A stretch of 64,000 nt of DNA from Bdellovibrio sp. NC01 (GTDB lineage: Bacteria > Bdellovibrionota > Bdellovibrionia > Bdellovibrionales > Bdellovibrionaceae), in contig NZ_CP030034.1 in assembly GCF_006874625.1 (NCBI RefSeq), positions 2,046,001 through 2,110,000 of the forward strand, given 5' to 3'. Made by a program: the position numbers and the translations under genes. Positions 1,368-2,373 of the stretch are shown piece after piece. The stretch's first letter is position 1; every line of letters starts with the position of its first letter. Under the pieces are notes generated by a model. The model was not told the DNA's origin. It searched no databases and was given only the letters and a program-made list of their open reading frames with translations.

Positions 1368-1449
1368 CCCCAACGCAAACACTCAACCAAAAGTAAGTCC
1401 ATACCTTCTCGACGAAAACCAAAAATAAGCCACACCCGTCCCGGTCCGC

Positions 1450-1713
1450 TTTCGATCTCATAGTCGCAAACTCTGTCGACATTTTTTTGATTCTTATTAT
1501 TCGAAGATACATTTTCTGAAGAAGTATTTCAGCGCTTCTGCGTAGAGCGGCCTTCGTCGGCGCCACGATGGCGCGAACCACAGCGCAGCTGTGGCGACGA
1601 TCGAGCCCGGACGGCGTGCCGCTCGAAGAAGAAGTGCTGAAATACTTCTTCAGAAAATCCCCGCACTACGAAAAACGAAGACCCAAAAAGTACGAAGCCC
1701 GTCCGACTATGAA
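1450..1713. repeat. Long imperfect palindrome in a 403-bp gene-free stretch
   Basis: The stretch 1368-1770 has no convincing gene. Its core is an inverted repeat: arm 1511-1538 (begins attttctgaagaag) matches arm 1631-1658 at 27 of 28 positions, and the one mismatch (g1534/t1635) would be a G-U pair in RNA. Inside, gagcggc 1545-1551 pairs with gccgctc 1618-1624, and two local hairpins lie at 1561-1573 and 1578-1594. Outside, tcatagtcg (1458-1467 region) mirrors cgactatga at 1704-1713, with patchy similarity between. The whole could fold as one long structure. It may be a decayed MITE-like element, a structured RNA or a large bidirectional terminator. Confidence 0.7.
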
Positions 1714-1770
1714 TCGAAACGGGCTCAGATCTCCCCCACAGAGATAATCTTTTAAATCTAAATTTGAATA

Positions 1771-2247
1771 TTAAAGCGCTTGCGCTTTAGCGATGATCGC
1801 TGGAACTTGATCAAGGTGCGCTTTACCGTACTTGATCATAGCGATTGCATCTTTTTGAAGAAGTTTACCTTGCGCCATTTTTTCGCAAAGAACTGGCTCC
1901 AAAGGATCTGTGATTGTGTACACGCTTACGTGTTGTGGCCACAAGTTATCTTCAGAGTTCGCGCCACCCATGCACAATGGAATATAGTGATCGATTTTGA
2001 ATTTTTGACGATCCATTTGCAAAGTGCGGTAGCCGATTTTGTCGTATTCACGGAAAACGTCTTTTTTAGTGCCTGAATCAACATTGCGTTCGCAGTAGTT
2101 AATACCTTCTGGATAGCGGTGTGATGTTGGACGTGTGCAAAGAGCACCAGGAGTTAGGTTAGCGTCTGGGCCTTTTGGGAATTGATCCGCAGCCTGAGAC
2201 ACAACAGAAACAAGGGACACAAGAGCAAGAGCGATTAACGTCTTCAT
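1771..2247 (-). CDS. Exported HNH-like nuclease domain protein
   Basis: The start is placed at 2247 because GGAGATAGA sits directly upstream and the first residues (MKTLIALALVSLVSVVSQAA) form a signal peptide; a longer frame upstream has no ribosome site. The mature protein is about 140 residues. The motif KIDHYIPLCMGGANSEDNLWPQ region resembles the His-Xn-Asn-Xn core of HNH endonucleases (D-H-x-P-L, then N-S-x-x-N-L-W-P). The product is likely secreted to the periplasm or outside. A role in DNA degradation is inferred from the motif only. It is a single gene with a terminator-bearing gap on its upstream side. Confidence 0.7.
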   Translation of the reverse strand: MKTLIALALVSLVSVVSQAADQFPKGPDANLTPGALCTRPTSHRYPEGINYCERNVDSGTKKDVFREYDKIGYRTLQMDRQKFKIDHYIPLCMGGANSEDNLWPQHVSVYTITDPLEPVLCEKMAQGKLLQKDAIAMIKYGKAHLDQVPAIIAKAQAL

Positions 2248-2373
2248 TCTATCTCCAAATAGACCATCATTTACGGCGATGGGTAGAAACGCCGGACCGT
2301 ATCTCCGACTTATATTTGCGTTCGTGCGGTTACTGATAGCCGTGAGATTTCTTACTTGCAATCAAAATAAAAA

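Follow-up and report, generated by a model that had tools for sequence, protein, structure and literature searches.

MITEs such as Correia/NEMIS, ERIC and RUP are non-autonomous imperfect palindromes of 100–200 bp that occupy intergenic DNA and have a related sequence in a full insertion sequence. Intrinsic terminators consist of a short GC-rich stem followed by a T-run. REP elements and BIMEs, which are associated with RAYT transposases, occur in many copies as dispersed extragenic palindromes at the 3′ ends of genes, including inverted pairs (PMC2817692, PMC3733652). Individual REP elements measure 20–40 bp, form one simple hairpin with conserved stems and carry an unpaired 5′ tag (GTAG, or GTGG/CGTC), the RAYT gene is flanked by the repeats, and the elements are thought to move as single-stranded hairpins (PMC2817692, PMC3733652). 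Bdellovibrio is not mentioned in the text of either paper. For inverted repeats in general, quasi-palindrome template switching is an established way in which the arms stay complementary (PMC8794818, PMC7202029).

In Bdellovibrio sp. NC01, a long imperfect palindrome occupies a 403-bp intergenic spacer (1368–1770) between a plus-strand gene (18–1367) and a minus-strand neighbor (1771–2361). All positions refer to the window, meaning the whole 64,000-nt stretch of DNA that was analyzed. The palindrome is probably a copy of a dispersed, Bdellovibrio-specific family of mobile hairpins that acts at the DNA level and behaves in ways reminiscent of REP/BIMEs and MITEs. It is best read as a new, genus-restricted mobile hairpin family, which by behavior belongs with the REP/BIME/MITE class and lacks defining features of each of its members.

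The likeness to REP elements lies in high copy number, extragenic placement 3′ of genes, and frequent inverted pairs whose 5′ ends face each other, as in BIMEs. In contrast to the short simple REP hairpin, the Bdellovibrio unit is about 171 bp long and has a branched core and, in almost every copy, arms with a sequence of their own. The core helix is preceded on its 5′ side by a GTAG-like motif (CGTAG, CGAAG or CGGAG; consensus CGNAG), a tag that varies among copies. With MITEs the family shares size, intergenic place, lack of autonomy, an imperfect palindrome, and a related module inside an insertion sequence; unlike them, it has neither convincing terminal inverted repeats in common with that insertion sequence nor a consistent target duplication, and its arms are not conserved in sequence. 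The sequence-only reading held that the palindrome fits no common feature type, which is correct in part, since hypervariable self-complementary arms combined with a conserved branched core depart from the standard REP and MITE designs.

Anatomy and distribution of the repeat unit

The features of the window copy are collected in Table 1. Within the core, helix P2 closes a three-way junction with hairpins P3 and P4, and hairpin P5 then follows, all enclosed by P1b. In an alignment of 26 cores, several unpaired stretches show little or no variation, namely CTT before P2, GAAC between P3 and P4, GA before P5, and GTG after P5. The arms behave differently: their sequences are unrelated between most copies, yet each pair is almost perfectly self-complementary. 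Whole units, arms included, are nevertheless common to some same-genome copies (L009/L012, L020/L022 and L054–L057/L026). Of the copies examined, fewer than half have a recognizable stem base (ATTTG/CAAATC), and the outer ends fall into subtypes.

Table 1. Features of the palindrome and its surroundings, in window coordinates
Feature	Position	Strand	Description	Basis
Repeated unit	1501–1671	+	About 171 bp; layout 5′ to 3′: TCGAAG..AxATTTxc – arm – branched core – arm′ – AAATCCCCGCACTACGA	Ends common to same-genome copies, e.g. L009, L012, L020, L022, L026
Left stem arm	1511–1538	+	Copy-specific	27/28 complementary to 1631–1658
Right stem arm	1631–1658	+	Copy-specific	27/28 complementary to 1511–1538
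Covariance model R1 match	1534–1634	+	Conserved core and arm tips; genome 2047534–2047634	105.6 bits
Conserved core within helix P1b	1545–1624	+	GAGCGGC 1545–1551 / GCCGCTC 1618–1624	Fold, covariation
Helix P2	1554–1600	+	TCGTCG 1554–1559 / CGACGA 1595–1600; closes three-way junction	99% paired; two-sided changes in 5/6 pairs
Helix P3	1560–1574	+	GCGCC-ACGAT-GGCGC	Core alignment, covariation
Helix P4	1578–1594	+	CCACAGC-GCA-GCTGTGG; triloop; most variable core helix	Two-sided changes in 6/6 modeled pairs
Helix P5	1605–1615	+	GCC-CGGAC-GGC	Core alignment, covariation
Outer inverted repeat, left	1446–1466	+	Locus-specific, outside the unit	Score 14 vs shuffle maximum 12
Outer inverted repeat, right	1704–1722	+	Locus-specific, outside the unit	Overlaps terminator-like hairpin of minus-strand gene

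Sequence comparison recovered each element of the palindrome as it had been described from the sequence alone: the gene-free spacer, the arms with their single mismatch (G1534 against T, a possible G-U pair), the inner pair that corresponds to P1b, and an outer pair (tcatagtcg 1458–1466 / cgactatga 1704–1712). The arms are part of a longer complementary pair of 41 nt, in which 37 positions (90%) match. The RNA fold of 1440–1720 has an energy of −120.1 kcal/mol, whereas shuffled sequences average −75.3 kcal/mol (z = −8.7), and none of 200 shuffles was as low.

The outer pair extends further than first described, as CCGCTTTCGATCTCATAGTCG (1446–1466 against 1704–1722), and its score is beyond chance (2000 shuffles). 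Since this repeat is specific to the window locus and lies outside the unit, being no part of the family, the 260-nt span consists of two nested things rather than the single extended stem with which the sequence had been called compatible. The outer repeat is perhaps a template-switch copy of the terminator hairpin of the neighboring gene, and it may be a local inverted duplication. To this extent it agrees with the idea that the palindrome arose by chance or as a scar of local rearrangement, an idea that the sequence-only reading had offered as its own refutation. For 1501–1671, however, this explanation is refuted by a multi-copy family with covariation across the genus, which leaves it next to no probability.

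The 281-bp region gave 22 matches when used as a query against the host genome. A covariance model, R1, was built from aligned cores at 19 places in the host genome and seven from relatives, and a search with it (E ≤ 0.001) found 26 copies in the host genome. Copies are present in 22 of 24 Bdellovibrio genomes, with 3–31 per positive genome and about 338 in the genus as the sum of per-genome counts. In a phylum sample of 291 genomes, matches outside the genus were limited to seven genomes, whose copies are few or weak; the strongest of these are in G035, from another genus of the same family. There, two inverted copies flank a stretch between two flagellin-like genes. An exact core 21-mer occurs in only 3 records among 84,980 species, all of them Bdellovibrio sp., in a search from which records very near the genome of the window may be left out. 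The viral contigs and the phage and plasmid collections searched contained no match to the family. Furthermore, no description of it was found in the literature on Bdellovibrio repeats, REPs, insertion sequences and small RNAs. The family is a previously unnamed, genus-wide repeat of a predatory bacterium, nearly confined to Bdellovibrio and almost absent elsewhere, with no described counterpart found.

Two further observations concern the make-up of individual copies. The motif TCGAAGC/CGAAG, a candidate binding or nicking site, is found repeatedly: at the outer ends of many copies, in the P4 loop, in the internal loop next to the core, and also in spacers close by (e.g., the flanks of L150, L153, L185 and L196). 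In G022, a small open reading frame lies in the roughly 350 bp enclosed by an inverted pair of copies (about 1143–1496 of that locus, L161), an arrangement that is composite-like.

Covariation and the level at which the fold acts

Conserved pairing was assessed on 80 distinct sequences and 28 modeled pairs. Standard pairs occupy 98.0% of the cells, compared to 28–44% in slid structures, and two-sided changes affect 613 cells, compared to 189 in shuffles, and involve 23 of the 28 pairs; because the alignment was fitted to R1, the absolute values lean towards the model, and the contrast is still large. Between close copies, 47 double changes were observed where about 8 would be expected under independent change. 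The fold is kept under strong constraint, so that the suggestion of a decayed mobile miniature element is wrong as to decay; its other half, a miniature mobile kind, agrees with the number of copies and with one polarized insertion described below.

Very strong covariation and a conserved branched fold whose loop nucleotides do not vary would also be expected of a structured RNA family, a second candidate of the sequence-only reading. The copies would then be 3′ UTR elements or small RNAs in which the branched core is functional and the arms serve as a stability stem, duplicated to many genes. That they lie mostly downstream of genes, where transcription would reach, is in keeping with this explanation. 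RNA folds, however, normally tolerate G-U and not A-C pairs, and the core of the hairpin family tolerates hardly any of either, with 9 G-U (about 0.3%) and 4 A-C against 2945 Watson-Crick pairs. The control, a purine riboswitch from 22 orthologous loci of the same genus, has 34 G-U (8.8%, 34/388), 0 A-C and 354 Watson-Crick pairs, a comparison that rests on one RNA family, and very GC-rich RNA helices may also have few G-U pairs. Isolated mismatches in the arms comprise 31 G.T, 16 A.C and 51 others. This weak one-strand excess of G.T over A.C would be produced by an RNA as well as by a single folded DNA strand, and it may indicate which strand folds. Where close copies differ by a recent single change, there is no wobble preference (38 G.T, 30 A.C), and in codirectional spacers there is no bias towards the sense orientation (26 sense, 36 antisense).

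The scarcity of G-U and A-C pairs together with the lack of orientation bias favors a fold at the DNA level, and the near-pure Watson-Crick pairing points to a DNA hairpin and/or homogenization by template switching rather than to RNA. Furthermore, Rfam has no match over the window element at the gathering score, and its sub-threshold matches at E up to 10, e.g., a microRNA-like stem, are not meaningful. A simple consensus scan found no sigma-70-like promoter at the window copy. A study of strain HD100 lists eight attack-phase sRNAs (PMC3627812). Altogether, a structured RNA family is an unlikely explanation for the palindrome.

Two narrower roles were considered for parts of the unit. As two of the core loops read GGAU or CGAU, a CsrA-type decoy RNA came into question; it was discarded, since most copies have CGA as the first loop and the pairing is not RNA-like. 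An internal-guide function, as in bridge or seek RNA, was considered for the variable arms and dismissed, as these do no more than pair with one another.

Template switching may be the process by which the arms are kept complementary. It is known to produce multi-base compensatory changes (PMC8794818, PMC7202029), and here it would account for the arms, but neither for the invariant core loops nor for the dispersal of the family. The hairpins offer a natural test of how bacterial palindromes stay near-perfectly paired while their sequence changes, with selection on RNA, selection on a DNA fold and replication template switching as the candidate causes. They also warn that covariation alone is no proof of RNA, and the near absence of G-U pairs could become a cheap criterion for separating covariation at the DNA level from that at the RNA level.

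One copy lies just upstream of the start codon of a pilM-like gene, at the same position in six Bdellovibrio species, and across these six copies the arms have changed together while the GTATAG..CTATAC part is invariant. Its retention in six species with compensated arms suggests a putative host function, for which it is the best candidate in the family; this speaks somewhat against the mobile-hairpin reading, and the copy is possibly a domesticated regulatory one.

Genomic position, insertion sequences and mobility

Copies sit at the 3′ ends of genes in either orientation. By a simple codon-usage gene caller, 48 lie between convergent genes and 7 between divergent genes. Convergent and divergent spacers are equally frequent on any circular chromosome, and the same caller found 10 convergent and 9 divergent neighbors in the window. 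This distribution is what a bidirectional 3′-end device would produce, that is, a very large terminator, as the sequence-only reading had also considered, or an mRNA-stabilizing hairpin between convergent genes. Comparison of the window locus with 22 other genomes is in line with such a device in that most of them have an ordinary short terminator in this spacer; only one (G009) has an adjoining R1 match, which is weak and a different copy. Yet the search of 1300–1900 yielded no site resembling a terminator with its T-run. Separate ordinary terminators, moreover, persist beside the hairpin unit, and a terminator has no need of a branched core with invariant loops. A 3′-end device is consequently very improbable.

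Movement of the unit is suggested by one presence/absence difference. A copy in G001 (L166) is missing in the close relative G018, whose two flanking sequences adjoin directly at AAAATA, and the site is also empty in the outgroup G020. In G001, about 240 extra bp lie between AAAATA direct repeats, immediately beyond the stop codon that ends the left gene. The difference is best read as an insertion that took place in the lineage of G001. However, a short terminator outside the hairpin unit is also part of the extra segment, and the empty site, too, has a short terminator in the same spacer, which again fits the 3′-end device. The 6-bp AAAATA is the one target duplication seen and could be microhomology; inspection by eye revealed no consistent target duplication at other copies.

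The unit also resides inside insertion sequences. In G012 and G009, it is found within IS1-like elements of about 1.08 kb that have the inverted repeats AAACTGATC/GATCAGTTT or variants, where it lies between the transposase stop and the right inverted repeat. All five lineages with closely related transposases (58–100% identical) carry this module, although in that of G019 only its arms and ends remain. Insertion sequences whose transposases are 35–43% identical are without the module and have short terminator-like hairpins in its place, which is a further point of agreement with a 3′-end device. The module-carrying transposase matches the IS1 family model NF033558 of NCBIfam with 44 bits (E 2e-11), below the curated cut-off of 100. 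Judged by the IS1 profile and terminal inverted repeats, the IS-borne copies are thus weak members of the IS1 family, and the window copy is not a member. The IS1-like loci concerned are L243–L247 and L257.

These associations raise the alternative that the module is the 3′ hairpin of an IS1-like lineage, and that solo copies are leftovers of it or derivatives mobilized by it. Its presence in five lineages at one fixed place speaks for such an origin, as does the finding in G012 that the nearest relatives of the IS core among solo cores belong to the same genome. However, solo copies have neither the terminal repeats AAACTGATC..GATCAGTTT nor a transposase. No relative of the module-carrying transposase was found in the genome of the window, which is one of ten among the 24 genomes without such a match, several of which have at least 20 copies. 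IS-borne cores do not form one clade but lie dispersed among solo cores in a tree built on about 100 positions, and the more distant relatives without the module likewise do not fit. For the first three of these reasons, the insertion sequences are better regarded as carriers than as the source, and an IS origin is rather improbable, somewhat below the RNA explanation.

Two transposases were considered as partners of the family and rejected. The IS1-like enzyme is associated with the module in five lineages, yet is absent from the genome of the window. Of the 24 genomes, 21 have RAYT/Y1 transposases, but the 1.5 kb on either side of the 12 Y1/RAYT (Y1_Tnp) genes tested, one of them from the genome of the window, are free of copies, which is unlike the flanking repeats of RAYT genes in REP systems.

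Under the preferred reading of a mobile hairpin family acting at the DNA level, the unit would fold as a single-stranded DNA hairpin or a cruciform, on the lagging strand or as a transposition intermediate. The invariant core would then be recognized by a protein, probably a transposase borrowed in trans, which would insert new copies. The sequence of the arms would drift, with complementarity kept by quasi-palindrome template switching at replication and by selection for the fold. Surviving copies would accumulate between convergent genes, where insertion would be least harmful. A more specific version can be put forward tentatively: a new kind of mobile DNA hairpin, moving through a single-stranded intermediate, in which only the branched core is recognized and the arms are rewritten in each copy while staying complementary through template switching, with IS1-like insertion sequences also carrying it as a 3′ module and the copy upstream of pilM as its domesticated derivative. 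The family is, in addition, a natural test of how hairpin repeats can spread when no transposase gene is dedicated to them.

Neighboring genes

The minus-strand neighbor, taken here as 1771–2250, is preceded by the purine riboswitch that served as the control above (RF00167, 52 bits, 2240–2337, minus strand), which is kept in the 22 orthologous loci aligned. The equivalent of position 74 is C, which we take to denote a guanine-type purine riboswitch. The gene product, a small protein that appears to be secreted, has an HNH-like motif, DHYIPLCMGGANSEDNLWPQ, and no Pfam match was found for it. Secretion of a nuclease under guanine control would be sensible for a predator that digests the DNA of its prey. 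On the other side of the spacer, the protein of the plus-strand gene has a Peptidase_S74 (endosialidase chaperone) domain at its C terminus, like self-cleaving fiber or adhesin proteins.
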